NCBI GenBank assembly: GCA_016191115.1
Contig: JACPPG010000023.1
Location: 1 to 64,000 of the forward strand
Source of the DNA: Planctomycetia bacterium
GTDB taxonomy: Bacteria; Planctomycetota; Planctomycetia; Pirellulales; JACPPG01
Length of the DNA: 64,000 nucleotides
Reading direction: 5' to 3'
Made by a program: the position numbers and the translations under genes
In this document: positions 5,408 through 22,132 of the stretch, piece by piece
Position numbering within the stretch: the stretch's first letter is position 1
How the letters are laid out: each line of letters begins with the position of its first letter
The notes under the pieces: model-generated
What the model saw: only the letters and a program-made list of their open reading frames with translations
What the model was told of the DNA's origin: nothing
The model's database searches: none

Positions 5408-6937
5408 GTGAACTCGTCTAAGCTGCGCTTTACCACGGGCATGCTGCTGCGGATGGGGGCAGACGCCGTGATGGTCAATGCGGCGCTTCTGACCGCGCTT
5501 GCGCTGTGGTTCATGGCGCTTGTGATCACGCAGGACGGAGCGAACGCCGGCGTGATTTTCCGGAGCATGCTCGATCACTTCACGAGCGCCGCATGGCCAC
5601 TGACGCTCGTTTGCTTGGTCCTCTTTTACTTCAGTGGTTTCTACACCTACGGACGCGCGTACCAAAGCCGGTACAAGGCGCTGATCGTCACGCAGGCGGT
5701 GACGCAGGGCTTTTTGGCGTTCGGTTTTCTGTCGTCCTTCTTCGGCGGCGCCGGCGGCGGATTCATGCTGCCGCGGTCGGCGCTCGTGCTGGCGTGGTTG
5801 TTCAGCCTGCTATTGTTGGTCGGTTCCCGCGTGTGGACCACGTTGTGGGTGAAAATCGTGAGTCCCGAGAGGGCCGCCATCGAGGCCAAACGCGGCCGCG
5901 AGAGAACCGTGCTTGTGATCGGCGGAGCGGGCTACATCGGCTCGGCGCTTTTGCCGAAACTGCTCGACAAGGGCTACCGCGTCCGCGTCCTGGACCTGAT
6001 GATCTTTGGCGACGAGCCGGTCGAAAGGATCTTGAACCATCCGCGGCTGGAGATTCGCCGCGGCGATTTCCGCCACGTCGAGCAAGTCGCCGAAGCGCTC
6101 GCGGGCGTCGATTCCGTCGTCCACCTGGGGGCCATCGTTGGCGACCCGGCCTGCAATCTGGACGAGGAGCTGACGATCGAGGTGAACCTCACGGCCACCC
6201 GCATGATCGCCGAGCTGGCCAAGGCGGCCGGCGTCGAGCGGTTCGTCTTCGCCAGCACCTGTTCGGTCTACGGCGCCACAACCGAGACCCTGGACGAGCG
6301 GAGCATCGTCAGGCCGATCTCGCTCTACGGTCACACCAAGCTGGCCAGCGAACGCGTGCTGTTGGACATGGCGACCGAGCGATTTGCGCCCACCGTCCTG
6401 CGATTCGCCACGATTTACGGCCTGTCGGGCCGCACGCGTTTCGATCTGGTGGTGAACTTGCTCACGGCCAAGGCCAAAATCGAGGGAAAGATCACCGTGT
6501 TTGGCGGCGAACAGTGGCGGCCGTTCGTACACGTCGACGACGCGGCCCTGGCGGTGTCGACCGTGCTCGAGGCGCCGCAGGCGGTCGTTGCCAACCAGAT
6601 CTTCAACGTCGGCTCGAACGACCAGAACTACACCATCCAGGAAATCGGCGAGTTGGTGCACCAGTGCGTCATTTCCGCCGACCTGATCCTCGACAAAGGT
6701 GACGGAGACCGGCGCGACTATCGCGTCAATTTCAACAAGATCCGCAATCTGCTGGGCTTCGCGCCGCGATGGACGGTGCGGCAAGGCATCCAGCAAGTCT
6801 TGGACGCCATCGCCAATGGCGACGTCTCCGATTACTCCGATCCCCGATACAGCAACGTTAAATTCTTGCGCGAGAAGAAATCGGTGGCACGCGACAACTG
6901 GGCCCAGGAGCTGGTCCGCGTTATCGCGTCGCAGTAG
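5408..6937 (+). CDS. Membrane-anchored NAD-dependent epimerase/dehydratase
   Basis: Predicted 509-residue fusion. Residues 1-150 hold four hydrophobic segments (about 20-42, 61-83, 91-113, 124-147), like the N-terminal membrane region of PglF/WbpM/CapD dehydratases. Residues 168-509 form an extended SDR domain with the NAD motif GGAGYIGS (G172-S179), SVYG, and the catalytic Y307xxxK311 in LYGHTK. The intermediate Rossmann (CoA-binding-like) domain of PglF/WbpM is missing, and the SDR part reads more like a UDP-sugar 4-epimerase or reductase than a 4,6-dehydratase. It precedes the DegT aminotransferase by 245 nt, so it may supply a keto or epimerised sugar nucleotide to that enzyme. The exact substrate cannot be read from sequence. 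Confidence 0.85.
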   Translation: MNSSKLRFTTGMLLRMGADAVMVNAALLTALALWFMALVITQDGANAGVIFRSMLDHFTSAAWPLTLVCLVLFYFSGFYTYGRAYQSRYKALIVTQAVTQGFLAFGFLSSFFGGAGGGFMLPRSALVLAWLFSLLLLVGSRVWTTLWVKIVSPERAAIEAKRGRERTVLVIGGAGYIGSALLPKLLDKGYRVRVLDLMIFGDEPVERILNHPRLEIRRGDFRHVEQVAEALAGVDSVVHLGAIVGDPACNLDEELTIEVNLTATRMIAELAKAAGVERFVFASTCSVYGATTETLDERSIVRPISLYGHTKLASERVLLDMATERFAPTVLRFATIYGLSGRTRFDLVVNLLTAKAKIEGKITVFGGEQWRPFVHVDDAALAVSTVLEAPQAVVANQIFNVGSNDQNYTIQEIGELVHQCVISADLILDKGDGDRRDYRVNFNKIRNLLGFAPRWTVRQGIQQVLDAIANGDVSDYSDPRYSNVKFLREKKSVARDNWAQELVRVIASQ

Positions 6938-7182: not shown

Positions 7183-8385
7183 ATGCGTGAATCGCCGGCG
7201 GTTCTGGGCGGGCAGCCCGCGTTTGCTGAGTTGCTGCGGTTCGTAAAGCCGGATTTACCCAGCCACGCCGCCCTGGAGCCAGCCTTGCGCGAGATCGTCT
7301 CCTCCGGCATGCTCACGAAGGGGCCGTACCTGGGCCGGTTCGAGCGCGCCGCGGCCGAGCATCTGGGCGTCAAGCACGCGGTGGCCGTGTCGAGTTGCAC
7401 GTCGGGCTTGATGCTGGCCTATCGCGGGCTGGACCTGCGCGGCGACGTCGTCGTGCCCAGCTTCACGTTCATGGCGACCGTCAGCGCACTGGTGTGGGCC
7501 GGCTTGCGCCCGGTATTCGCCGACGTCGACCCCCTCAGCACGAACCTGACGCCCGAGGCGGCCGAGCGGGCGATCACGCCTGACACCTCGGCCATCGTCG
7601 CCGTGCACAACTTCGGCAACCCGGCCGATATCGAGGGGCTGAAGGCGGTCGCCGAAAAGCACGGCGCGGCGCTCGTCTTCGACGCGGCGCACGGGTTTGG
7701 GGCGTTGTACCGCGGCTCGCCGGTGGGCGGTCAGGCGAGCGCGCACGTCTTCAGCCTCAGCCCGACCAAGCTCCTGATCGCCGCCGAAGGTGGCATCGTC
7801 GCCACGAACGAAGACCGGCTGGCGGAACGCATCCGCGTGGGCCGCGAATACGGCAACGACGGCCACTACGACAGCCTGTTCGCCGGCCTTAACGCGCGGA
7901 TGCCGGAAATGAACGCTCTACTGGGCCTGCACGGCCTGGCCATGCTGGAAGACGTGGCGCGGCGCCGCAACCAGGCGGCCGACGAATATCGGCAGCGCTT
8001 GCACGAGATTCCCGGTCTTGCGCCCATTCATGTCGCGGCCGGCAATCGCTCGTCGTATAAGGACTTCGCCGTCACGGTTGACCCCGACCGTTTCGGGCTC
8101 TCGCGCGACGAGCTGGTTCGCGCGCTGGCGGCCGAGAATATCGACACGCGCAACTATTACGATCCACCCGTCCACCGTCACAAGGCTTATCGCCACTTCG
8201 CCGCGGCGGATTTGAGGCTGCCGAATACGGACCTGCTGGCGGCGTGCAGCGTCAGCCTTCCCATCGGCTCCAATCTGGGCGAGGGTACGGTCGCGAAGAT
8301 CTGCGATGCGGTCCATCGCATCCACCGATCGGCCCGCGACGTGAAGGCCAAACTGAAGGGCGGACGCGACAGCGTCGTCGTTTGA
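7183..8385 (+). CDS. DegT/DnrJ/EryC1/StrS sugar aminotransferase
   Basis: Predicted 400-residue PLP-dependent aminotransferase that converts a keto-sugar nucleotide into an amino sugar, normally with glutamate as donor. Typical family features are SSCTSGLMLAYRGL near the N-terminus, VVPSFTFMATVSA, the PLP-ring aspartate D167 in LVFDAAHGFGA, and the Schiff-base lysine K196 in SLSPTKLLIAAEGG. The length is normal for the family. It sits between the membrane-anchored epimerase and the initiating sugar transferase, and two PglD/NeuD-like acyltransferases follow later. This suggests the amino group it installs is then acylated on the first or second sugar of the repeat unit. Confidence 0.93.
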   Translation: MRESPAVLGGQPAFAELLRFVKPDLPSHAALEPALREIVSSGMLTKGPYLGRFERAAAEHLGVKHAVAVSSCTSGLMLAYRGLDLRGDVVVPSFTFMATVSALVWAGLRPVFADVDPLSTNLTPEAAERAITPDTSAIVAVHNFGNPADIEGLKAVAEKHGAALVFDAAHGFGALYRGSPVGGQASAHVFSLSPTKLLIAAEGGIVATNEDRLAERIRVGREYGNDGHYDSLFAGLNARMPEMNALLGLHGLAMLEDVARRRNQAADEYRQRLHEIPGLAPIHVAAGNRSSYKDFAVTVDPDRFGLSRDELVRALAAENIDTRNYYDPPVHRHKAYRHFAAADLRLPNTDLLAACSVSLPIGSNLGEGTVAKICDAVHRIHRSARDVKAKLKGGRDSVVV

Positions 8386-8467: not shown

Positions 8468-9742
8468 ATGCGCGTCTTGCTCATTCACCAATGGTTTGCC
8501 GCCCCCACCGAGCCGGGCGGCACGCGCCACTACGAGCTCACGTCGCAACTGGCGCGGCGCGGCCAGGAGTGCGTGATCGTGGCTAGCAATCTCAATTACG
8601 CCACGGGCAAGCGGATCGTCGACGGCCGCGGGCTGGTGGTCGAACAGCGCTTCGGCGATTTGCGCGTGCTCCGCGCGTATGCCTATCCCTCGGTCCACAC
8701 GTCGTTCGCGGGGCGCCTGGTGTCGTTTTTCAGCTTTATGGCCACGAGCTTTTGGGCCGCGATGCGCGTGCGGAAGGTCGACGTGGTGATGGCCACGTCG
8801 CCGCCGTTGTTCCAGGCGGCTTCCACGTGGCTGGTAGCCTTCTTGCGGCGGCGGCCCCTGCTCTTGGAAATCCGCGATCTGTGGCCGGAATTCGCGATCG
8901 ACATCGGCGTCCTGAAAAACCCGGTTCTGATCAAGCTGGCGCGATGGCTGGAGCGTTTCTTGTACGCCCGCGCCACGCACTTTCTGGTCAACTCGCCTGC
9001 CTATCGGAACTATCTGACGGGCAAGGGAATCCCGGCGGAACGGATCACGCTGATCGCCAATGGCGTCGATCCCGGCATGTTTCACCCGGACGCCGACGGC
9101 CGCGCCTTCCGCGACGCGCTTGCGCTCGACGGCAAGTTCGTCGTTACCTATGCCGGCGCGTTGGGCATGGCCAACGACATCGAGACGATCCTCCGCGCGG
9201 CAGGCCGGCTACGCGATCAATCGGGGATCCAATTCCTCTTGGTCGGCGGAGGCAAGGAGAAGGCCCATCTCGAGGCGCTCGCGCGCGACATGAAACTCCC
9301 CAATGTGGCCTTCGTCGGTACCCGCACGAAGAATGAGATGGCCGACGTCTTGGCCGCCTCCGACGCCTGCCTGGCGACGCTCAAGGATATCCCCATGTTT
9401 CGCACCACCTATCCCAACAAGGTGTTTGACTACATGGCGGCCGCGCGGCCAACGATCCTGGGGATCGATGGGGTGATTCGCGACGTGGTCGACGCGGCGG
9501 GAGGGGGCATTTTCGTTCCGCCCGGCGACGACGCGGCACTGGCCGACGCCGTGCAACGCCTCCGCAACGACCCGGGCCAGGCCCGCGCGATGGGTCGTGC
9601 CGCCCGCGAATACGTTCAAGAGCACTTCAATCGCCACGTGCAGGCGGACCAATTCGCCGATTTGTTGGAACGGCTCGCCGACCCAAGCGGATGCTCCACG
9701 CGTGAACCGCCTGTACCGGAAGTTCGGCAAACGTGCGCTTGA
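8468..9742 (+). CDS. Glycosyltransferase family 4 (WbuB-like)
   Basis: Predicted 424-residue GT-B fold glycosyltransferase acting at the cytoplasmic membrane face. The N-terminus LLIHQWFAAPTEPGGTRHYE carries the glycine-rich acceptor-domain loop of WbuB-like enzymes. Other segments are LLEIRDLWPEFAID, LIANGVDPGMFHP, VTYAGALGMANDIETILRA and a C-terminal nucleotide-sugar-binding domain. The ATG at 8468 is chosen because the encoded beta-strand starts immediately after it; the upstream extension is unlike the family. Its 3' end overlaps the next gene, the initiating sugar transferase, by about 40 nt. The two are therefore probably made together, with this enzyme adding the second sugar. Confidence 0.9.
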   Translation: MRVLLIHQWFAAPTEPGGTRHYELTSQLARRGQECVIVASNLNYATGKRIVDGRGLVVEQRFGDLRVLRAYAYPSVHTSFAGRLVSFFSFMATSFWAAMRVRKVDVVMATSPPLFQAASTWLVAFLRRRPLLLEIRDLWPEFAIDIGVLKNPVLIKLARWLERFLYARATHFLVNSPAYRNYLTGKGIPAERITLIANGVDPGMFHPDADGRAFRDALALDGKFVVTYAGALGMANDIETILRAAGRLRDQSGIQFLLVGGGKEKAHLEALARDMKLPNVAFVGTRTKNEMADVLAASDACLATLKDIPMFRTTYPNKVFDYMAAARPTILGIDGVIRDVVDAAGGGIFVPPGDDAALADAVQRLRNDPGQARAMGRAAREYVQEHFNRHVQADQFADLLERLADPSGCSTREPPVPEVRQTCA

Positions 9743-10400
9743 TCTAGCGATCAGCGTTCCGGCCCTCGTTCTGTTCTCGCCCGTGCTATTGCTGACGGCG
9801 CTCGTGCTCCGGCGCCGGCTGGGTAAGCCCGTGCTGTGGCGAGAGACGCGGCCGGGTCGCGGCGCGCGGCCGTTCGTGTTGTGCAAGTTCCGCACGATGC
9901 TCGACACGCGCGACGCGGAAGGCAACCTTCTCCGGGACGCCGAGCGCATGGAGCCGGTGGGGACATTCATCCGTTCGGCAAGTCTCGACGAGTTGCCGCA
10001 GCTTTGGAACGTGGTGAAGGGAGAGATGAGCCTGGTCGGCCCTCGGCCCCTGGTCACGCGGTACCTCCCCCGCTATACGCCGGAACAATTTCGCCGGCAC
10101 GAGGTGCTTCCCGGCATTACCGGCTGGGCACAGGTGAACGGGCGGAACGACATCCCGTGGGAGCGGAAGTTCCAACTCGATACGTGGTACGTCGATCACT
10201 GCGGGTTCTGGCTGGACATGAAGATCTTGTGGATGACCGTGCTGAAGACGTTCAAGAAAGAAGGGATCAACGCGGCCGGCCATGCCACGGCGCCCGAATT
10301 CGAGGGGACCGCCAGGCAGCAGCCGTCCATCGAACCGGGGGATGACGATTCGGTCGTGGTTGCTGACGCTTCCCGGAGCAAAAGTGCCGGGAGCGGCTAG
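9702..10400 (+). CDS. Initiating sugar-phosphate transferase (PglC/WbaP family)
   Basis: Predicted 232-residue monotopic phosphoglycosyl transferase that moves a sugar phosphate from a UDP-sugar to undecaprenyl phosphate, starting each repeat unit. An N-terminal hydrophobic re-entrant helix lies at about residues 10-32. The catalytic Asp-Glu dyad D96-E97 is in SLDELPQLWNV, followed by GPRPL and GWAQVNGRN. The short length is that of PglC, not of full WbaP. GTG 9702 is chosen because it gives the family-type N-terminus NRLYRKFGKRALDLAI. The last 40 residues are polar and probably disordered. PglC enzymes prefer acylated diamino sugars, which fits the aminotransferase upstream and the NeuD/PglD-like acyltransferases downstream. 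Confidence 0.93.
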   Translation: MNRLYRKFGKRALDLAISVPALVLFSPVLLLTALVLRRRLGKPVLWRETRPGRGARPFVLCKFRTMLDTRDAEGNLLRDAERMEPVGTFIRSASLDELPQLWNVVKGEMSLVGPRPLVTRYLPRYTPEQFRRHEVLPGITGWAQVNGRNDIPWERKFQLDTWYVDHCGFWLDMKILWMTVLKTFKKEGINAAGHATAPEFEGTARQQPSIEPGDDDSVVVADASRSKSAGSG

Positions 10401-10891: not shown

Positions 10892-11941
10892 ATGAGCCTC
10901 AGGTTCCTGACGGTCGACGACGCCGAGTGGGGCGAGTTCCTCGGCGGAGTGCGACACGACTTCTACCATCTGCCCTCTTATGCGCGCCTGTCGGCGCCGT
11001 TCGACGGCGGCAGGCCGGAGGCCGTATTGTTCCGGCAAGGCTCCCGCTATTTCTTCCTCCCCTACGTCGTGAGACCATTGTCGCAGCTTCGGTGGTTGGG
11101 TAGCGAAGGGGATGAACTCTTCGATATCGTCTCGCCTTACGGCTATCCCGGGCCGCTGGCGTCGCCGGATAGCCGGTTCGTCACCGACGCCATCGGTCAA
11201 TGGCGGGCCGCGATGCGCGACCGCGGCGCTGTCAGCGGATTCATTCGATTGCACCCCTTGATCGAGGCCGACCACGAAGCCCTGGCGGCTCACGGCGAAT
11301 TGGTCTCGCGCGGCCGGACGGTCTCAATCGACTTGACCCTCTCCCCCGACGAAATGTGGAGCCAGACCAGCCAAACGCATCGCAACGAGATCTCCAAGGC
11401 GCGGCGGGCCGGGCTGACCGCTTTGATGGATTCACGGCTTGTCAACATGCCCACGTTCTTGGCTATGTACTACGAGACGATGGATCGCGCCGCGGCCTCG
11501 CAGTACTACTACTTTCGCGAAGGGTATTTTTCCGAGCTCCGCGATGCCCTGGGCGACTCGCTCTCGCTGTGTCTGGTGCGCGACCCGGAGGGACAAGTGT
11601 TGTGCGGAGGGTTGTTCACGGAGTGTTGTGGAATCGTGCAATATCACCTTTCGGCGACTTTCAGCGCCGCGCTGCGGCAGCATCCCGCGAAGCTGATGCT
11701 GGATTACGTTCGTAAATGGGCCAAGGAGCGCGGCAACACGGTGATGCACCTGGGAGGCGGGATGGGCGCGCGCGAGGACTCCCTGTTCAGCTTCAAGTCG
11801 CGTTTTTCGCCCCGTCGCCACGCCTTTTTCACCTGGCAAATGCGGCTCCTGCCCGATGTTTACGAGAAGCTGGAGAGCCGTCGCCGCAGCATGGCCAATG
11901 GAGCCGTCGAAAGTTCCTATTTTCCCGTCTACAGGGCCTGA
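10892..11941 (+). CDS. FemAB-like GNAT transferase
   Basis: Predicted 349-residue protein with a double-GNAT fold, related to FemA/B/X and to the FemAB-like proteins of exosortase-linked EPS loci. FemAB enzymes transfer amino acids from tRNA to peptidoglycan precursors; the EPS-linked members have no proven reaction. Recognisable parts are DFYHLPSYARLSA near the N-terminus, SQTHRNEISKARRAGL in the middle, and YHLSATFSAALRQHPAKLML plus HLGGGMGAREDSLFSFKSRF near the C-terminus. It is well separated from its upstream neighbour, so it may begin a transcription unit. A role in attaching an aminoacyl or acyl group to the polysaccharide is a fair inference only. Confidence 0.82.
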   Translation: MSLRFLTVDDAEWGEFLGGVRHDFYHLPSYARLSAPFDGGRPEAVLFRQGSRYFFLPYVVRPLSQLRWLGSEGDELFDIVSPYGYPGPLASPDSRFVTDAIGQWRAAMRDRGAVSGFIRLHPLIEADHEALAAHGELVSRGRTVSIDLTLSPDEMWSQTSQTHRNEISKARRAGLTALMDSRLVNMPTFLAMYYETMDRAAASQYYYFREGYFSELRDALGDSLSLCLVRDPEGQVLCGGLFTECCGIVQYHLSATFSAALRQHPAKLMLDYVRKWAKERGNTVMHLGGGMGAREDSLFSFKSRFSPRRHAFFTWQMRLLPDVYEKLESRRRSMANGAVESSYFPVYRA

Positions 11942-12122: not shown

Positions 12123-12797
12123 ATGAACCATTCCGCAGGAAGGCTTGTCGTCGTGGGCGCCGGCGGCCATGCCAAGGCCGTGGTCGGCGCCTCCCAGACG
12201 GCCGGCTATGACGTCGTCGCCGTCTATGACGACGATGCCAGGAAATGGGGCAAGACGCTCTTGGGAGTGCCGATCTTTGGTCCCATCGACCGCGTGCTCG
12301 ACATCGGGCGGACTCCGGTCCTCATCGGGATCGGAGATGCCGGCACGCGCGAAACGCTGGTCGAGCGGCTGCAACTGGACTGGGCCACGGTGATTCATCC
12401 CTCGGCATTTCGGCACCTTAGCGCGGTCGTCGAACCGGGAACCGTCATTTTCGCGGGCGCCGTTGTGCAACCCGAGGCCCGAATCGGCGCCCACGTGATC
12501 GTGAATGCCAATGCGACCGTCGCCCACGATTGCATTCTAGAGGACTACGTGCACTTGGCACCGGGCGTCGCCCTGGCTGGGTCGGTGCGGGTCGGCAAGG
12601 CGGCGTTCGTGGGCATTGGCGCCGTCGTGATCAACAACATCACGATCGGCGCCGGCACGATCGTCGGCGCGGGCGCCGCCGTCACGAGCGACCTGCCGAA
12701 GGGCGTCATCGCCGTCGGAAGTCCGGCACGGCCGATCAAGTTCGTCGACGGCCAGATGCTGCCGGCTGGAGTGCTGTATGAGGAGCCCGCGACTTGA
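12123..12797 (+). CDS. NeuD/PglD-like sugar O/N-acyltransferase
   Basis: Predicted 224-residue acyltransferase of the NeuD/PglD family. The N-terminal Rossmann-like domain begins RLVVVGAGGHAKAVV. A left-handed beta-helix with hexapeptide repeats covers about residues 90-205, including VEPGTVIFAGAVVQPEARI and AHDCILEDYVHLAPGV, with the likely catalytic His in VAHDC. PglD acetylates a 4-amino sugar nucleotide and NeuD O-acetylates sialic acid. Here the gene is the first of a coupled module (its TGA overlaps the TTG of the ACP gene), so its donor may be an acyl-ACP instead of acetyl-CoA. A second, divergent copy closes the module at 16870. Confidence 0.88.
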   Translation: MNHSAGRLVVVGAGGHAKAVVGASQTAGYDVVAVYDDDARKWGKTLLGVPIFGPIDRVLDIGRTPVLIGIGDAGTRETLVERLQLDWATVIHPSAFRHLSAVVEPGTVIFAGAVVQPEARIGAHVIVNANATVAHDCILEDYVHLAPGVALAGSVRVGKAAFVGIGAVVINNITIGAGTIVGAGAAVTSDLPKGVIAVGSPARPIKFVDGQMLPAGVLYEEPAT

Positions 12798-13174
12798 CGG
12801 ATCGGTGGCCCCCGCAAGATTCGGGCGGTGAGCAGGCAGGCGCGCACCCCGCGCGGCCGGCCCCTGCGCCCGACGCCGACCGCGTCCTGGCGCTCATCTG
12901 GCACGCCGTCGATGAGCTGAACGAGCTATTGCCCGAGGACGCCCGCATCGCCAAGGACGTCGACGCCGTGCTGTTGGGCGAATCGGGCGCGCTGGATTCG
13001 TTTGGCCTCGTGAACCTGGTCGTGGCGCTCGAGCACCGGATCGAGGACGAATTCGGCACGAGCGTCACCTTGGCCGACGAAAAGGCGATGTCCAAAAGCC
13101 GCAGCCCCTTCCGTAGCGTGCGGACGCTGCGCGATTACGTCGCCGAGGTCCTCTCGCGCGCGACTCATGGCTGA
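12794..13174 (+). CDS. Acyl carrier protein, first of two
   Basis: Predicted 126-residue carrier protein. After a 28-residue Pro/Ala-rich extension it shows an ACP four-helix pattern (about 29-120) with the probable phosphopantetheine serine S69 in GALDSFGLVNLV. The usual DSL is DSF here. It is longer than housekeeping AcpP (about 78 residues) and resembles carriers found in sugar-modification islands. It starts with TTG overlapping the stop of the acyltransferase gene, and its own TGA lies inside the start region of the FabG-like gene. This points to tight translational coupling and a dedicated role in the module. Confidence 0.82.
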   Translation: MTDRWPPQDSGGEQAGAHPARPAPAPDADRVLALIWHAVDELNELLPEDARIAKDVDAVLLGESGALDSFGLVNLVVALEHRIEDEFGTSVTLADEKAMSKSRSPFRSVRTLRDYVAEVLSRATHG

Positions 13175-13868
13175 TCGCCCGGTCATCCTCATCACCGGCA
13201 CGAGCCGTGGCATCGGCCGCCAATTGGCCGAGCACTACGGGGCGAAGGACTACCAAGTGGTGGGCTGCAGCCGGCGCGAGCCGGCAATCACCGACGCGAA
13301 CTATCGCCACTTCGCGCTGGACGTGGCCGACGAGCCGGCCGTGAAGAAGATGTTCACGGCGATGCGCGGCGACTACGGGCGCCTGGACGCGCTGGTGAAC
13401 AACGCCGGAATCGCCAGCATGAACCATATCCTGACGACGCCCATGGCAACCGTGCTCGACGTGCTCTCGACGAACGTGGCCGGAACGTTCCTGTTTTGTC
13501 GCGAGGCGGCCAAGTTGATGCAGCGGCGGCGCGCCGGCCGCATCGTCAATTTTTCCAGCGTGGCCGCGCCTTTGAAGCTTGAGGGCGAAGCGATCTACGC
13601 CGCGTCAAAGGCGGCGGTGATCTCTCTGACCGAAGTTCTTGCCCGCGAATTGGCCGATTTCGGCATCACCGTCAACGCGATCGGACCGACGCCGATCCAT
13701 ACCGACCTGATCGCCTCGGTGCCGGCCGCCAAATTGGACAGCCTGATCGCGCGGCAGGCCATCCGCCGCTACGGCGAGATCAGCGACGTGATCAACGTGA
13801 TCGACTTCTTTCTGCGGCCGGAGAGCGACTTCGTGACGGGCCAGACGATTTTTCTGGGGGGCGTGTAG
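13167..13868 (+). CDS. 3-oxoacyl-ACP reductase-like SDR
   Basis: Predicted 233-residue classical short-chain dehydrogenase of FabG type, reducing 3-oxoacyl-ACP to 3-hydroxyacyl-ACP with NAD(P)H. It has the cofactor motif TGTSRGIGRQ, LVNNAG, the catalytic serine S131 in NFSSVAA, and Y144xxxK148 in IYAASKAA. The C-terminus ends TGQTIFLGGV, typical of FabG. It overlaps the ACP gene before it and the ligase gene after it. The context points to a dedicated reductase for a short 3-hydroxyacyl substituent, not the housekeeping enzyme. Confidence 0.9.
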   Translation: MADRPVILITGTSRGIGRQLAEHYGAKDYQVVGCSRREPAITDANYRHFALDVADEPAVKKMFTAMRGDYGRLDALVNNAGIASMNHILTTPMATVLDVLSTNVAGTFLFCREAAKLMQRRRAGRIVNFSSVAAPLKLEGEAIYAASKAAVISLTEVLARELADFGITVNAIGPTPIHTDLIASVPAAKLDSLIARQAIRRYGEISDVINVIDFFLRPESDFVTGQTIFLGGV

Positions 13869-15268
13869 TGCCGATTGGGTTCTTGCTCGACGCGTTCGCG
13901 GCGCATCGCGAAGCCGACGCCATCGTCTGGCGGGACCGCGCCTTCTCCTATGGCTGGCTCGAGGAACACATCGCCGATTGGCGGGACCAACTTGCTGCGG
14001 AAGCGATTCCGCCGGGCGCGGTCGTGGCGATCGAGGCCGATTTTTCCCCGGCTGCCGTGGCGTTGTTCCTCGCCCTGATCGAGCACGGCGCGATCCTCGT
14101 GCCGCTGACCGAGAGCGTCGCGCAGCAGCGCGACGAGTTTCTCGACATCGCCGAGGTAGAATTCACGATCGCTTTGGATCGAGCCGACGCGGCGACGTTT
14201 GCCCGCCGTCCGGTCGCCGCCGCCCACGAATTCTACGTGCGTCTGCGGGCGCTTGCGCACCCCGGCCTGGTGCTCTTTTCGTCGGGGTCGACGGGCAAGA
14301 GCAAGGCCGCGGTACACGACGTCGTCGGTATCCTGGAAAAGTTCCGCGTTCCGCGGAAACGGATGCGGACGATCTCGTTCCTGCTCTATGACCATATCGG
14401 CGGCATCAACACGATGCTCTATACGCTTGCCAACGCCGGCTGCTTGGTGACGGTCGCGGACCGTACGCCCGACGGCGTGCTGGGCGCGGTCGCGCGGCAC
14501 AAGGTCGAGCTATTGCCCACGTCGCCCACGTTCCTGAACATGCTCTTATTTAGCGAGGCCTACACCCGTCACGATACGTCGAGCCTGCACACGATCACGT
14601 ACGGCACCGAGCCGATGCCCGAAAGCACGCTGCGGCGACTGCACGAGCTATTCCCGGACAAACAGCTCGTGCAGACGTACGGCCTGTCGGAGGTGGGGAT
14701 CCTGCGGTCGAAATCGAAGAGTTCGGACTCCCTGTGGGTCAAAATCGGTGGCGAGGGGTTTGAGACCCGCGTCGTCGATCGCATCCTGCAGATCAAGGCC
14801 CGCTCGAGCATGCTGGGCTACCTGAACGCCGCCAGCCCCTTCACGTCCGACGGCTGGTTCGTCACGGGGGACGAGGTCGAGGTTGACGGGGAATACGTGC
14901 GGATTTTGGGGCGCAAGAGCGAGCTGATCAATGTCGGGGGCCAAAAGGTCTTTCCGGCCGAGGTAGAGGGCGTCATTCAGGAAATGCCAGGGGTCGCCGA
15001 CGCCACGGTGTACGGCGAGCGCAACGCGATCACCGGGCAGATCGTGTGCGCGAAGGTAACGCTCGACGCGTCGGAAGACACGGCCACGTTTCCGCGCCGT
15101 TTGAAACAACATTGCCGCGGCCGGCTCGCGCTCTTTAAGGTCCCGGTCAAGGTGGACGTGGTCGCAGCCCCGCAGCACGGCGCACGGTTCAAGAAAATGC
15201 GGAACGCCGAACAGACGGCCGCGGCGCCGGCGCCGCGCGCGGGCGAGGAAGCAGCCGATGGCCGCTAG
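13868..15268 (+). CDS. AMP-dependent acyl-CoA/acyl-ACP ligase
   Basis: Predicted 466-residue ANL-superfamily enzyme that activates a carboxylic acid as acyl-AMP and passes it to CoA or a carrier protein. The P-loop SSGSTGK is at 138-144, followed by VQTYGLSEVGIL and the hinge/motif segment ILGRKSELINVGGQKVFPAE. A lysine-rich C-terminal segment (FKKMRN) could provide the adenylation lysine. It is shorter than typical long-chain acyl-CoA ligases (500-560 residues). The GTG start overlaps the stop of the FabG-like gene, and its 3' end overlaps the KAS III start by 11 nt. An AMP-ligase is also a regular member of exosortase-A EPS loci. Whether it loads one of the two ACPs here cannot be told from sequence. 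Confidence 0.9.
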   Translation: MPIGFLLDAFAAHREADAIVWRDRAFSYGWLEEHIADWRDQLAAEAIPPGAVVAIEADFSPAAVALFLALIEHGAILVPLTESVAQQRDEFLDIAEVEFTIALDRADAATFARRPVAAAHEFYVRLRALAHPGLVLFSSGSTGKSKAAVHDVVGILEKFRVPRKRMRTISFLLYDHIGGINTMLYTLANAGCLVTVADRTPDGVLGAVARHKVELLPTSPTFLNMLLFSEAYTRHDTSSLHTITYGTEPMPESTLRRLHELFPDKQLVQTYGLSEVGILRSKSKSSDSLWVKIGGEGFETRVVDRILQIKARSSMLGYLNAASPFTSDGWFVTGDEVEVDGEYVRILGRKSELINVGGQKVFPAEVEGVIQEMPGVADATVYGERNAITGQIVCAKVTLDASEDTATFPRRLKQHCRGRLALFKVPVKVDVVAAPQHGARFKKMRNAEQTAAAPAPRAGEEAADGR

Positions 15269-16319
15269 CAGCGTCAAAGGCGTCCGCATCGCCGGCGTCG
15301 CCAGCGCCGTGCCGGAAACCGTCCTCACACTGGAGGACGACGCCAAGGTTTTCGGCCGCATGGAGATCGAACGAATCAGCCAGAACATCGGCGTCAAGCG
15401 CCGGCACGTGGTCCGCGAAGGGACCTGCACCTCCGACCTGTGCTTCGCGGCCGCCGCGCGGTTGCTGGACGAGCTGCCCTGGCCGCGCGATTCGGTCGAC
15501 GCGATCATTTTCGTGTCGCAGACGGCCGACTACTTCATGCCGGCCACGGCCTGCGTTCTGCAAGACCGCCTGCGACTGGCGAGGCACTGCGCCGCGTTTG
15601 ACGTGAACCAAGGCTGCGCGGGTTACGTGTACGGGCTGTGGATCGGCTCTCAACTAGTTCGCGGCGGCTGCCGGCGACTGCTGCTATTGGCCGGCGATAC
15701 GACCAGCCGGCTCGTGTCGCCGCGGGACCGCACCGTGGCGTCGTTGTTCGGCGACGCGGGAACCGCCACGGCTCTGGAAGTCGACGAAGAGGCCCCGGCG
15801 ATGCACTTCGAGCTGGGCACCGACGGCAGCGGCCGGAAATGTTTGATGGTTCCGGCGGGCGCCTTCCGCCAGCCGCACACGGCCCAATCGAGCCAGCGGA
15901 CTGAGCGCGAAGGGGGCAATATCCGCGGCGACGAAGACCTGGTGATGGACGGCGGCGAAGTGTTCACGTTCGCCCTGCGGGAGGTGCCCCGGCTGGTGCA
16001 AACGATCCTTTCCGCGGCCGGTTGTGGCACGGCCGACATCGATGCTTTCGTGTTCCATCAGGCGAACCATTTCATGCTCAACCACCTGGCGAAACGCTTG
16101 AAGTTGCCGCAGGAAAAAGTGGCGGTCGGGCTCACGGACTACGGGAATACGAGCTCCGCCTCGATCCCCTTGGCGATCACGACCGAGCTTCGCGAGGCCC
16201 TGTCCACGCAAGGCCGGCGGTTGCTCCTGGCCGGCTTCGGCGCGGGGTTTTCCTGGGCCGCTTCGGTGCTGTCGTGCGGCCCGGCGTGCGTGCCCCCGGT
16301 CCTTGTGGCGGCCTCATAG
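15258..16319 (+). CDS. 3-oxoacyl-ACP synthase III (FabH-like)
   Basis: Predicted 353-residue thiolase-fold condensing enzyme. The KAS III triad is complete: C120 in NQGCAGYVYG, H267 in FHQANHFM and N297 in YGNTSSASIP. It would condense an acyl-CoA primer with malonyl-ACP to give a 3-ketoacyl-ACP. There is no KAS I/II gene in the window, so only one round of elongation would be expected, followed by reduction by the neighbouring FabG-like enzyme. Comparable KAS III, ACP and FabG-like genes occur in glycosylation islands where an amino sugar receives a 3-hydroxybutanoyl group. It overlaps the ligase gene by 11 nt. Confidence 0.92.
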   Translation: MAASSVKGVRIAGVASAVPETVLTLEDDAKVFGRMEIERISQNIGVKRRHVVREGTCTSDLCFAAAARLLDELPWPRDSVDAIIFVSQTADYFMPATACVLQDRLRLARHCAAFDVNQGCAGYVYGLWIGSQLVRGGCRRLLLLAGDTTSRLVSPRDRTVASLFGDAGTATALEVDEEAPAMHFELGTDGSGRKCLMVPAGAFRQPHTAQSSQRTEREGGNIRGDEDLVMDGGEVFTFALREVPRLVQTILSAAGCGTADIDAFVFHQANHFMLNHLAKRLKLPQEKVAVGLTDYGNTSSASIPLAITTELREALSTQGRRLLLAGFGAGFSWAASVLSCGPACVPPVLVAAS

Positions 16320-16333
16320 CGAGGAGGCGTCGA

Positions 16334-16423
16334 TTTTGGCACCCAAACCGGCAAGAATCGCGGTACCTGAGCGCCCCGCGGTGGTTCAATGCAATACAAA
16401 GTTTTGGCACCTTTCCGAGCAAG
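16334..16423 (+). promoter_or_regulatory. Repeated TTTTGGCACC-N7-GCAAG motif
   Basis: Two 22-nt copies of a split motif, at 16334-16355 and 16402-16423, lie in the gap between KAS III and the second ACP gene. Each is TTTTGGCACC, seven variable bases, then GCAAG (with GC preceding AAG in both). The layout recalls a sigma54 -24/-12 promoter but the GG-to-GC distance is one base too long in both copies. A regulator-binding repeat is equally possible. Confidence 0.25.
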
Positions 16424-16528
16424 TATCCAAGACAAGTGAATCTGCGCGGTACACTACACCGTCCGACGTGGGGCAGATTGCGGGCCCAGGGCGCGCGGCA
16501 GTAGCCGCGAAGCGGTGACAGACCAACC

Positions 16529-16771
16529 ATGGTGGATGCGAACGCCGAATTCGTGCGACGACTGGCCGAGGCCTTGAACGAGGACTCGGCCGCCGTCCAA
16601 GAAAACACCCGGCTGGCCGACCTGGAGGGGTGGGACTCGGTGGGGCAACTTTCCGTCATCGCACTTGTCGACGAGTGTTTCAATCGCCGGCTCAACGTCG
16701 ACGCGCTGCGGAAGTGCCAAAGCGTGTCCGACCTGCTGCACCTCATTAACGGGCAGTCCCAGCAGCCGTGA
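16529..16771 (+). CDS. Acyl carrier protein, second of two
   Basis: Predicted 80-residue ACP of normal size. The phosphopantetheine attachment serine is S37 in the motif GWDSVGQLSV (DSV instead of DSL). The four-helix pattern is clear, ending SVSDLLHLINGQ. It is separated from the KAS III gene by about 210 nt and followed after 98 nt by the second NeuD-like acyltransferase. It is not close in sequence to the 126-residue ACP at 12794, so the two probably serve different partners: for example, one for chain building and one for transfer. Confidence 0.9.
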   Translation: MVDANAEFVRRLAEALNEDSAAVQENTRLADLEGWDSVGQLSVIALVDECFNRRLNVDALRKCQSVSDLLHLINGQSQQP

Positions 16772-16869
16772 TCCCGATCATGCGCCATTGTGAGTCCGCG
16801 CCCTCGCAGACGCTGGATCCGCGAAGTCCGCGGCAGGTCGCCAGAGCGAAGGACGGCGGGAGCTAACCA

Positions 16870-17505
16870 ATGCACCACAAGAAACGCCTGTACATCGTGG
16901 GCGCGGGGGGATTCGGCCGTGAAGTGGCCTGTTGGGCCAGCGACTTCTGTCGGGCGCAAAGCGATTGGGAGTTGGTGGGCTTCCTCGACGACAAACGCGA
17001 CGCCCTGGAAAACTACCCGAGCAATCTCGCGGTGGTGGGAACGCTGGATGCGCAGCAGTTCGGGCCGCAGGATCGGGTATTCATCGCCATCTGCGAGCCC
17101 CGCGTCAAGATGCAGATCGTGGAGAAGTTCGCCGGCCGGGTCGAGTTCGCCACGATCATTCATCCCACGGCCATCATCGGATCGCATTGTGAGATCGGCG
17201 TCGGCTGTATCCTCTGCCCCAACGTCACGCTGTCGACCAATATCACCATCGGCGACCACGTCCACTTGAACCTCAAGGCCACGGTCGGGCACGATGCCAC
17301 GATCGGCTCCTTTTCCACGCTCAACAGCCACGTCGACGTCACAGGCGGCGCCGCGATCGAGGAAGGCGTCTTCATGGGCTCGCACGCCACCGTCCTGCCC
17401 AAAGCCCACGTCGGCCGCTTTGCCCGCATCGGCGCCGGAAGCGTGGTGTTGCGCAACGTGCCGGCCGAAGAGACGGTGTTGGGCGTACCGGCGCAGAAGG
17501 TGTAA
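16870..17505 (+). CDS. NeuD/PglD-like sugar acyltransferase, second copy
   Basis: Predicted 211-residue acyltransferase with the N-terminal nucleotide-sugar-binding motif LYIVGAGGFGREVACW and a C-terminal left-handed beta-helix (about 95-205; NVTLSTNITIGDHVHLNLKA, VGHDATIGSFSTLNSHVDV). The likely catalytic His is in VGHDATIG. It ends with the family-type GVPAQKV. A GGGAG box 7 nt before the ATG supports the start. It is clearly divergent from the copy at 12123, so the locus probably acylates two positions or two sugars. It directly follows the small ACP gene, consistent with an acyl-ACP donor, although acetyl-CoA is the known donor in the family. Confidence 0.88.
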   Translation: MHHKKRLYIVGAGGFGREVACWASDFCRAQSDWELVGFLDDKRDALENYPSNLAVVGTLDAQQFGPQDRVFIAICEPRVKMQIVEKFAGRVEFATIIHPTAIIGSHCEIGVGCILCPNVTLSTNITIGDHVHLNLKATVGHDATIGSFSTLNSHVDVTGGAAIEEGVFMGSHATVLPKAHVGRFARIGAGSVVLRNVPAEETVLGVPAQKV

Positions 17506-19987: not shown

Positions 19988-22132
19988 GTGAAGCAGGTCG
20001 TGCAAAACTTTCGCTCCGGCGTCCTGGAGCTCTTGGACGTGCCTTGCCCGGCCGCCGGGCGCGGACAGGTGCTGATCCAGACCCGCGCCAGCCTTATCTC
20101 GGCCGGCACCGAGCGGGCGCTTGTCGAGTTCGGCCAGGCCAATTTGCTTTCCAAGGCCCGGCAAAGTCCCGAACGCGTCAAGCAGGTGCTCGACAAGATC
20201 CGCACCGAGGGCTTTCTGGCCACGTTCGACGCCGTCATGGCCAAGCTCGATGAGCCGCTCCCCCTGGGTTACTCCAACGCCGGCGTGGTCGTCGAAGTCG
20301 GGCCGGGTGTCACCCGCTTCGCCGTCGGCGACCGCGTCGCCAGCAACGGCGGGCACGCCGAAATGGTCAACCGGCCGCTGAATCTTTGCGCCAAGATTCC
20401 CGACGCGGTGAGCGACGCCGAGGCCAGCTTTGCCGTGCTTGGCTCGATCGCTTTGCAAGGCATCCGATTGGTGAAGCCTGAAATCGGCGAGACGGTCGTC
20501 GTCTTCGGGCTCGGACTGATCGGGCTCTTGGCTGTGCAACTTCTGGTGCAGGGCGGAGCGCGGGTGCTGGGGATCGATCCGGACTGCGGCCGCCTGGATC
20601 TGGCCAGGTCGTTCGGCGCCACGCCGATCGATGCCACGGCCGATCCGGTAGCCGCCGTCCTGGCGGCGACCCGCGGGAACGGGGCCGACGCCGTGCTCAT
20701 CACCGCTTCGGCCAAGGAGGACACCATCGTCAGCCAAGCCGCTCGGATGTCGCGCAAACGCGGCCGGATCGTGCTGGTGGGCATGGTCAATCTGGAGCTC
20801 AACCGCGCCGAGTTCTACGAGAAGGAGCTGTCGTTCCAGGTCTCCTGCTCCTACGGACCCGGCCGGTACGACGCGCAATACGAAGAGCAGGGCATCGACT
20901 ATCCCTATGGCTACGTCCGCTGGACCGAGCAGCGGAATATCGAGGCCGTGCTGGAGCTGATGGCCGCGCGCCGATTGAATGTCGAGCAGCTCATCACGCG
21001 GCGCATTCCGCACGCCCAGGCGACGCAAGCGTATGAGCTTCTGTCGAGCGATCGCGGGCAGTTGGGCGTCGTGCTCGAATATCCGGCGCGCCAACCGTCA
21101 CACGAGCGGACAATCTTCCACAAGCCGCCGGCGCAACCGACGAAGGCCGCGGGCAGCGCCACGGTCGGCGTGATCGGCGCGGGGGCATTCGCCAAGAGCA
21201 CGCTCCTGCCGGCCTTGATTCGCACTCCGGCCCGGCTGGCCGTGATTGCTAGCGCCGGCGGCGTCTCGGCGGCCCACGCCGCGCGGAAATTCGGCTTCGA
21301 GACCAGTACGACCGACTATCGCTCGATCTTGGCCGACAAGCACATCAACACGGTTTTCATCACGGCCCGCAGCAACCTGCACGCGCCGGTGGCGATCGAG
21401 GCCCTGGCGGCCGGCAAACACGTCTTCGTCGAAAAGCCGCTGGCGCTGTCGCGGGGCGAGTTGGCGCGGGTGCAAGAGGCATATGCCGCCACCAGCGGTT
21501 TGCAGCTTCTGGTCGGCTTCAACCGGCGGTTCTCGTCGCACGCCGTGAAGATGCGGCAGCTATTGGCCACCCGCTCGCAGCCGGCCACGATGAGCATGTT
21601 GGTCAACGCCGGCCATTTGCCGCGCGAACACTGGATGCACGATCCGCACGTCGGCGGCGGGCGGATCATCGGCGAGGCGTGCCACTGGATCGATCTGTTG
21701 AGCTATCTGGTCGATTCACCCGTCGTCGCCGTGCAGGCCGTCACGGTGGGCGACGTCGACAGCATGCCCACCCGCAACGACCACATGTCGATCACGCTGT
21801 CGTTCGCCGACGGATCGCTGGGCACCATCCACTACTTCGCCGGCGGCCACTTTTCGTTTCCCAAGGAAACGCTTACCGTCTTCTGCGGCGGCAAGGTGCT
21901 CGAACTCGACAACTTCCGCCGCCTGCGCGGGTATGGTTTCTCGGGTTTCAAGCGGCTCAACCTCTTCCGCCAGGACAAGGGGCACAACGCCGAAGTGGCC
22001 GCCTTCATCGAGCGCGTCGCCACCGGCGGCCCGCCGGTCATCCCGGTCGGGCAATTCTGGAACGTCACCGAAGCCTCGTTTGCCGCCGAAGAAGCGGCCG
22101 CCGAGCACACGCGCGTCCAGCTTGAAGGGTAA
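19988..22132 (+). CDS. Two-domain oxidoreductase: MDR plus Gfo/Idh/MocA
   Basis: Predicted 714-residue fusion. Residues 1-365 are a medium-chain, zinc-alcohol-dehydrogenase-like domain (SLISAGTERALVEFG, LGYSNAGVVVEVGPGV, cofactor loop VVFGLGLIGLLAVQLL). Residues from about 393 form a Gfo/Idh/MocA NAD-dependent domain (VGVIGAGAFAKSTLLPAL, VFVEKPLALSRGEL). This architecture is known from other surface polysaccharide loci, usually beside a heparinase II/III gene, as here. The reaction is unknown; oxidation and reduction of a sugar ring position on a nucleotide sugar is plausible. It starts with GTG, 79 nt after wecC. Confidence 0.9.
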   Translation: MKQVVQNFRSGVLELLDVPCPAAGRGQVLIQTRASLISAGTERALVEFGQANLLSKARQSPERVKQVLDKIRTEGFLATFDAVMAKLDEPLPLGYSNAGVVVEVGPGVTRFAVGDRVASNGGHAEMVNRPLNLCAKIPDAVSDAEASFAVLGSIALQGIRLVKPEIGETVVVFGLGLIGLLAVQLLVQGGARVLGIDPDCGRLDLARSFGATPIDATADPVAAVLAATRGNGADAVLITASAKEDTIVSQAARMSRKRGRIVLVGMVNLELNRAEFYEKELSFQVSCSYGPGRYDAQYEEQGIDYPYGYVRWTEQRNIEAVLELMAARRLNVEQLITRRIPHAQATQAYELLSSDRGQLGVVLEYPARQPSHERTIFHKPPAQPTKAAGSATVGVIGAGAFAKSTLLPALIRTPARLAVIASAGGVSAAHAARKFGFETSTTDYRSILADKHINTVFITARSNLHAPVAIEALAAGKHVFVEKPLALSRGELARVQEAYAATSGLQLLVGFNRRFSSHAVKMRQLLATRSQPATMSMLVNAGHLPREHWMHDPHVGGGRIIGEACHWIDLLSYLVDSPVVAVQAVTVGDVDSMPTRNDHMSITLSFADGSLGTIHYFAGGHFSFPKETLTVFCGGKVLELDNFRRLRGYGFSGFKRLNLFRQDKGHNAEVAAFIERVATGGPPVIPVGQFWNVTEASFAAEEAAAEHTRVQLEG

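Follow-up and report, generated by a model that had tools for sequence, protein, structure and literature searches.

A candidate two-unit N-acylation system for amino sugars in a planctomycete exopolysaccharide locus

Organisation of the module

The stretch analysed here (the window) comprises 64,000 nucleotides of a Planctomycetia bacterium of the order Pirellulales (GenBank assembly GCA_016191115.1, contig JACPPG010000023.1, positions 1 to 64,000) and contains, at 12123–17505, a module of seven genes encoding two NeuD-type sugar N-acyltransferases (NeuD1 and NeuD2), two acyl carrier proteins (ACP1 and ACP2), a short-chain dehydrogenase/reductase (SDR1), an AMP-ligase and a 3-ketoacyl-ACP synthase III (KAS III). 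All seven lie on the plus strand at the positions given by an initial annotation of the window, and both the coordinates and the family scans bear out its description of five genes overlapping end to start, with ACP2 and NeuD2 following. The intergenic distances are −4 bases (NeuD1/ACP1), −8 (ACP1/SDR1), −1 (SDR1/ligase), −11 (ligase/KAS III), +209 (KAS III/ACP2) and +98 (ACP2/NeuD2). From comparison with other genomes, we read the module as two separable units, A (ACP1, SDR1 and ligase) and B (KAS III, ACP2 and NeuD2).

12123..12797, plus strand: NeuD1, NeuD/PglD/VioB-type hexapeptide sugar N-acyltransferase (TIGR03570, 204 bits; cut-off 160.8)
12794..13174, plus strand: ACP1 (unit A), discrete acyl carrier protein, named from alignments, an AlphaFold2 model and Foldseek
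13167..13868, plus strand: SDR1 (unit A), short-chain reductase (Pfam adh_short; glycine-rich and S/YxxxK motifs)
13868..15268, plus strand: AMP-ligase (unit A), Pfam AMP-binding, of the same family as the ligase of the presumed thiomarinol plasmid pTML1
15258..16319, plus strand: KAS III (unit B; NF006829, 268 bits; cut-off 249)
16529..16771, plus strand: ACP2 (unit B; PF00550, 23.8 bits; cut-off 20.8)
16772..16869, plus strand: place of a second SDR gene (SDR2) in three sibling genomes; the window has 98 bp only
16870..17505, plus strand: NeuD2 (unit B), VioB-type N-acyltransferase (TIGR03570, 201 bits)

Pfam and NCBIfam scans back the names of both NeuD proteins, the SDR, the AMP-ligase, KAS III and ACP2. 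KAS III has the Cys (NQGCAG), His (FHQAN) and Asn (GNTS) that we take to be the catalytic positions of FabH enzymes. The nearest solved relatives of NeuD1 are perosamine N-acetyltransferase, a pilin glycosylation protein and VioB (PDB 4ea7, 117 bits; 4m98, 109 bits; 7txp, 107 bits). ACP1 had no match in the Pfam scan and matched DltC and carrier-protein profiles weakly; it has a D-S carrier motif, its Ser69 is invariant across 15 aligned carriers, and its subfamily shares a conserved C-terminal stretch in the alignments (consensus LADExAMSxxxSPFR). The AlphaFold2 model of ACP1 has four helices (mean pLDDT 76.8), and acyl carrier proteins were among its top Foldseek matches (E 0.2–0.45), with no match at E≤0.001.

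Conservation in sibling genomes and the missing SDR2

The family of the window organism is represented by five genomes in the set compared, all of one genus, and the other four (G001–G004) are termed siblings here. KAS III is present in 5/5 genomes (74–76% identity in the four siblings), the AMP-ligase is 74–77% identical within the genus, and the order ligase, KAS III, ACP2 is kept in all four siblings. NeuD1, ACP1 and SDR1 lie upstream of the ligase in G001, G002 and G003, the siblings whose contigs extend there, while the 3.5-kb contig of G004 covers part of the module only; NeuD1 was 60% identical to the NeuD1 of one sibling. Because gene order is kept across the siblings and KAS III is this similar in every one of them, we consider the arrangement to be more than chance.

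An SDR gene follows ACP2 in all four siblings; it is complete in G001, G002 and G003, whereas the G004 contig breaks off within it, and the part left there scored 23 bits, to SDR1 only. In the SDR tree, SDR2 of the three siblings grouped with SDRs that occupy the VioR position in Pseudomonas and others (10 rows, support 100/99), whereas SDR1 fell into one clade with SDRs that adjoin an AMP-ligase (11 rows, 100/99). Since the tree separates the ligase-linked from the VioR-like clade, SDR1 was assigned to unit A and SDR2 to unit B. The initial annotation had KAS III and the FabG-like SDR1 alone making one 3-hydroxyacyl-ACP; the tree indicates that this pairing names the wrong SDR, and the reductase expected beside KAS III is the VioR-like SDR2, which was not found in the window genome. 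Between ACP2 and NeuD2 there is no SDR2, and its best match elsewhere in the organism's own assembly (94% complete, 93 contigs) has 36% identity, which weighs against the preferred reading given below. As VioR-like SDRs go with unit B in other lineages, we infer that the window lineage lost SDR2, a more parsimonious course than a gain by the siblings.

The missing SDR2, together with perosamine N-acetyltransferase as the best solved relative of NeuD1, would suit a locus in which both NeuD proteins take acetyl-CoA and the genes for acyl building are remnants. However, the reading frames of the other genes are open and overlap, and KAS III and the ligase are well kept in the genus at the identities given above, so that N-acetylation alone appears very improbable.

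Unit B and the viosamine island

Unit B is of the viosamine-island kind (VioS/ACP/VioR/VioB), which is associated with N-3-hydroxybutyryl sugars. According to the available excerpts of the work on Pseudomonas syringae, N-(3-hydroxy-1-oxobutyl)viosamine is missing when vioA, vioB or vioR is mutated, while vioS (encoding a KAS III) and acp were placed in the viosamine pathway by homology (PMC3927599). The best solved relative of NeuD2 is VioB (7txp, 105.6 bits; the next scored 70.7), and NeuD2 shares 46% identity with the protein that P. amygdali has at the VioB position. Plasmid pBGF3 of Burkholderia glumae has flagellin, fliD, fliT, a TPR gene, vioA, KAS III, ACP, a second KAS-like stretch, an SDR and an acetyltransferase. 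The likeness to a flagellin 3-hydroxybutanoyl set noted in the initial annotation was thus upheld, both by the proximity of NeuD2 to VioB and by this row beside flagellin. The window shares with the P. syringae island and pBGF3 a KAS III, an ACP, a VioB-type acyltransferase and an aminotransferase that resembles VioA, though it scored under the PLP_DesI cut-off, and the siblings add the VioR-like reductase. It differs from the viosamine island in lacking SDR2, in having unit A and NeuD1 in addition, in the branch to which its KAS III belongs, and in its setting, an exopolysaccharide rather than a flagellar locus.

The KAS III itself argues for caution. It is 42% identical to VioS-position proteins, but an assignment as the VioS ortholog was rejected because those proteins fell into another clade in two trees (97/81 and 100/100), and matches to this KAS III are common, occurring in 97/246 genomes of the order at 1e-60. 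Among 64 named KAS III loci, a NeuD-type gene lay within 4 kb in at least 19, an SDR in at least 26, both in at least 18, an ACP in at least 30 and an AMP-ligase in at least one (Massilia), while a DegT gene lay within 9 kb in at least 25; these counts are based on score cut-offs and are lower bounds, given the many short contigs. The literature searched on named 3-hydroxybutanoyl transferases and their gene modules, in the portions available, mentions no KAS III or ACP.

Two loci of this kind have a second KAS gene or KAS-like stretch. The second KAS-like stretch of pBGF3 (L176, 8956–10057) is unannotated and in two pieces, perhaps a decaying gene, and a viosamine-type cluster of Pseudomonas viridiflava p4.B4 (L067, 8204–11719) has two different KAS III genes flanking an SDR and a VioB-type gene.

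Unit A and the mupirocin/thiomarinol starter cassette

A plasmid search with the AMP-ligase gave 10/72,556 records at E≤1e-40, among them a record that we take to be pTML1, the thiomarinol plasmid, with ligase, SDR, ACP and polyketide synthase (PKS) genes in a row. We have taken this row, by position, for TmlQ, TmlS, TacpD and TmpF, because it adjoins a 750-residue PKS just as MmpF (745 aa) adjoins macpD/mupQ/mupS. For mupirocin, the accessible text describes MupQ, MupS and MacpD as building a 3-hydroxypropionate starter (3HP-ACP) from malonyl-CoA, after which 3HP-MacpD and malonyl-ACP give 3,5-dihydroxypentanoyl-ACP with MmpF and MupD (PMC10098928).

The window ligase is 37% identical to the pTML1 ligase and 50% identical to PKS-linked ligases of Bradyrhizobium, and in the ligase tree the pTML1 protein nests among 16 family rows (100/100 against three own-genome paralogues). 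The stretches DHIGG, PTxPTF, YGxExM and YGxSE of the window ligase hold residues common to the pTML1 and PKS-linked ligases, with few changes, which suggests similar substrates. Unit A and the MupQ/MupS/MacpD cassette thus share one ligase family and the adjoining arrangement of ligase, SDR and discrete ACP, but the window module has no PKS and its order is ACP-SDR-ligase as against ligase-SDR-ACP in pTML1. Further points tell against equating the two: SDR1 scored 128–133 bits to FabG structures versus 88 bits to the TmlS-position SDR; it lies on one branch side with the TmlS-type clade (93/91, unstarred) although its own clade is separate; and ACP1 shares just 20% identity with the pTML1 ACP, from which its C-terminal half differs. 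Because SDR1 is nearer to FabG and ACP1 is this distant, unit A need not run the MupS reaction.

The initial annotation had set the AMP-ligase outside the known set of flagellin glycosylation islands, which our literature comparison, by gene names, does not support. In the excerpts consulted, Aeromonas group II flagellin islands have genes for an ACP, a 3-oxoacyl-ACP reductase and an AMP-dependent synthetase, and enterobacterial flagellin islands have acp, fabG and caiC (PMC7874193, PMC4875605); the O1-specific genes of Yersinia ruckeri include a trio of the ACP/reductase/AMP-synthetase type (PMC5552943). Compared by gene names alone, these are the same three gene kinds as unit A, and the flagellin-island trios likewise sit in a glycan locus, although accompanied there by luxC/luxE; none of the three descriptions, as far as the excerpts extend, names a KAS III. 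For the Vibrio cholerae O1 antigen, the ligase RfbL/WbeL is assigned to tetronate, putatively with the carrier RfbK (PMC12208996, PMC3441752). By description only, this resembles the window in its AMP-ligase, putative discrete ACP and N-acyl group on a 4-amino-4,6-dideoxy sugar, but the excerpts describe no KAS III or NeuD pair. With such trios in flagellin islands and Y. ruckeri O1, and RfbL/WbeL in V. cholerae O1, an AMP-ligase is, judged by gene names, not foreign to glycan loci of such kinds. In the portions of the literature searched, we found no description of both units in one locus or of a trio tied to the mupirocin cassette.

These comparisons bear on the possibility that unit B makes a 3-hydroxybutyryl group from acetyl-CoA while unit A loads some other acid (hydroxy, keto or amino, as proposed for RfbL/WbeL and tetronate) and SDR1 is a plain ketoreductase. 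FabG as the closest solved protein to SDR1, the assignment of RfbL/WbeL and its putative carrier RfbK to tetronate, and the 3-hydroxybutyryl viosamine made by the P. syringae counterpart of unit B (PMC3927599; the latter two sources in excerpt) are all consistent with it. The ligase motif residues common to the pTML1 and PKS-linked proteins in the alignment, with the similar substrates that they suggest, argue the other way, and we regard this division of labour as unlikely.

Related ligases were also seen in other plasmid and genomic clusters. Plasmid p1S06B of Bradyrhizobium japonicum (L136, 11953–22120), typed as conjugative and from soybean nodules, has a cluster of ligase, SDR, ACP, type I PKS, hydrolase and phosphopantetheinyl transferase genes with insertion sequence elements on both sides, and Burkholderia stagnalis (L137) has a similar row of ligase, SDR, (ACP), a large open reading frame (ORF) and hydrolase. 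An unusual small-molecule cluster on a Rhizobium sp. T1470 plasmid, also typed as conjugative (L138, 10037–17656), has in a row an ACP, a GNAT-like protein (just under the Pfam cut-off), an SDR, a ligase, a NeuD-like protein (under the TIGR03570 cut-off) and an annotated CmlS-type halogenase, with an alpha/beta hydrolase adjoining.

Distribution and joining of the two units

The AMP-ligase was found in 13/397 genomes of the class (profile of 15 rows, E≤1e-75); with the window protein as query it was found in 7/297 genomes at 1e-40 and in 2/392 of a phylum sample, the window's own genome being included in all three counts. KAS III is linked to the ligase in four of the 13 (the window genome, G002, G003 and G872). 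In five of the nine without a linked KAS III, an acyltransferase gene directly follows the ligase, encoding a hexapeptide transferase (G265, G344 and G821), a VioB-type NeuD (G007) or a GNAT protein (G098), the calls for G821 and G007 being homology scores. Two of the nine have a PKS-type gene near the ligase (G024 and G093, called from ORF length and start; the G093 contig has just 1.8 kb on one side), and two have neither (G283, where a glycosyltransferase is next, and G860). G667, from the phylum sample, has ACP1-SDR1-ligase, and nothing following the ligase matched an acyltransferase.

Three lineages combine units A and B: the window genus, G872 and Massilia. The order in G872 is KAS-SDR2-NeuD2-ACP1-SDR1-ligase, with one NeuD and, by motif scan, no second ACP on a contig that stops 0.7 kb past the ligase. 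In the trees its KAS has the one from G049 as sister (99/99) and its ligase the one from G860 (100/100), and in 20-kb stretches G049 had no ligase match and G860 no KAS match. This suggests at least two joinings of A and B, separately in G872 and in the window genus; replacement of one unit is a possible alternative. The suggestion that the units always travel together was rejected, as a ligase lies near KAS in 1/64 named KAS loci and the 20-kb stretches of G049 and G860 each lack a match to the gene of the other unit, and the initial description of the module as self-contained likewise does not hold, the two units being found apart in other genomes.

Joint occurrence raises the possibility that the units act in series, the product of unit A priming KAS III, being lengthened by two carbons on ACP2, reduced to a dihydroxyacyl group (e.g. 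3,5-dihydroxypentanoyl) and transferred by NeuD2, with NeuD1 a plain acetyltransferase. The presence of both units with a single NeuD and no detected second ACP in G872 (within the contig limit given above), the three lineages with both units and the apparently separate joining in two of them favour such a series, as does the extension of 3HP-MacpD to 3,5-dihydroxypentanoyl-ACP in mupirocin, but that step, in the accessible text, uses a ketosynthase of another type (PMC10098928). Also against a series, an acyltransferase gene adjoins unit A in five of the nine genomes without a linked KAS III, including the VioB-type NeuD of G007, and the two NeuDs and two ACPs of the window suggest two products. 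We consider action in series possible, though on the unlikely side.

In Massilia sp. IC2-477 (L004, 6508–17077) the set reads KAS-ACP1-SDR-ligase-ACP2-KAS-Rieske-SDR-hexapeptide transferase and, because an FlhB-family gene lies 2.3 kb away, it is perhaps a flagellin glycosylation island.

The surrounding locus and the candidate amino-sugar acceptor

Family scans placed the module among genes for an exosortase, a Wzc-like ATPase domain, a DUF3485 protein (presumably of the EpsI type), an initiating sugar-phosphate transferase and glycosyltransferases, together with NeuB, Epimerase_2 (NeuC-type) and a cytidylyltransferase (NeuA-type), a flippase-type protein, a Wzy_C protein, MBOATs and a carbamoyltransferase. 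WecB- and WecC-like genes, named by eye from the sequence, come after NeuD2. No flagellar families were found among the 50 window ORFs scanned, exosortase and polysaccharide genes being there instead. Three further genes of the locus lie upstream of the module:

5408..6937 (ORF limits), plus strand: NDP-sugar epimerase/dehydratase-type enzyme (domain at residues 167–463)
7183..8385, plus strand: DegT sugar aminotransferase, DesI/VioA-like, candidate source of the amino group
9597..10400 (ORF limits), plus strand: initiating sugar-phosphate transferase (PF02397; domain from residue 45)

The best solved relative of the DegT protein is DesI (2po3, 233 bits) and its nearest among the fetched loci are the VioA-position proteins of Pseudomonas (33% identity). 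With a DesI/VioA-like DegT here and RmlA and RmlB encoded elsewhere in the genome, dTDP-4-amino-4,6-dideoxyglucose is a fair guess for the acceptor. Set against this, the DegT protein scored 311 bits to PLP_DesI, under the cut-off of 650, and the upstream DegT differs in siblings G001 and G003 (154–155 bits versus the window DegT); that of G001 is PseC-like, with a dehydratase-like gene adjoining, although this pair would be predicted still to yield a 4-amino sugar. The initial proposal of an acyl-building and sugar N-acyl-transfer module within a polysaccharide locus is supported, with the DesI/VioA-like DegT enzyme as the candidate source of the amino group.

Given ligase relatives in PKS clusters and in one halogenase-bearing cluster, the module might instead make a lipid or small molecule unconnected with the polysaccharide. 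The two NeuD-type transferases, the DegT gene, the glycan-rich locus and the unit B homologues in flagellin islands all speak against this, and we hold it to be highly improbable.

Proposed pathway and its implications

Our preferred reading, to which we assign a probability of about 0.58, is a two-unit N-acylation system that acts on amino sugars in an exopolysaccharide of the exosortase type. The likeliest outcome is that 4-amino-4,6-dideoxy sugars of that polymer receive one or two unusual N-acyl groups. The comparisons establish the gene content, the families, the conservation and the separability of the units and suggest that these were joined repeatedly, whereas the substrates, reactions, acceptor and polymer are inferred. 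In unit A, the AMP-ligase would activate a short carboxylic acid and load it onto ACP1, SDR1 would then act as reductase, and the product, because the ligase is kin to the thiomarinol/mupirocin starter enzymes, would likeliest be a short omega-hydroxyacyl-ACP (3-hydroxypropionyl or 4-hydroxybutyryl). In unit B, KAS III would condense a primer with malonyl-ACP2, ketoreduction would fall to SDR2 in the siblings and to SDR1 or a housekeeping FabG in the window organism, and NeuD2 would move the 3-hydroxyacyl group onto the NDP-4-amino-4,6-dideoxy sugar from DegT. For NeuD1, service to unit A in parallel is the likeliest role, although we put it at less than even odds.

Hydroxyacyl amides contribute to the character of antigens and to surface chemistry. 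According to the sources available in part, 4-hydroxybutyramido sugars occur in marine O-polysaccharides, with Idiomarina abyssalis KMM 227 and a Pseudoalteromonas strain among the bearers of 4-hydroxybutanoyl, and no genetic basis for them was found among the literature matches listed. A portable ACP-SDR-ligase unit that adjoins sugar acyltransferases within glycan loci would offer a candidate genetic source of such sugars that can be tested, and its presence there, with a related unit beside polyketide synthases, would link two fields. Unit B resembles a known flagellin-sugar pathway, the ligase of unit A shares a family with the starter-making step of thiomarinol, and the two gene sets probably make uncommon acyl groups and transfer these to amino sugars. 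A wider proposition would have a starter cassette of the polyketide-antibiotic kind coupled to KAS III, in at least two independent couplings, to give a surface polysaccharide with amide-linked dihydroxyacyl groups extended by two carbons (e.g. 3,5-dihydroxypentanoyl or 3,6-dihydroxyhexanoyl), with unit A alone as a general genetic source of omega-hydroxyacyl (3-hydroxypropionyl or 4-hydroxybutyryl) amides on bacterial sugars; we regard this as doubtful.

Other features near the module

Directly before the module, at 10892–11941 of the window, lies a gene for a FemAB/GNAT-like protein (XrtA-associated type, weak match), which is kept in three siblings. In one sibling (L115, 13418–14302), an FkbM-type methyltransferase gene lies between FemAB and NeuD1; the window has no such gene there. 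Downstream, a single ORF at 19988–22132 joins a zinc-alcohol-dehydrogenase-like domain to Gfo/Idh/MocA domains.

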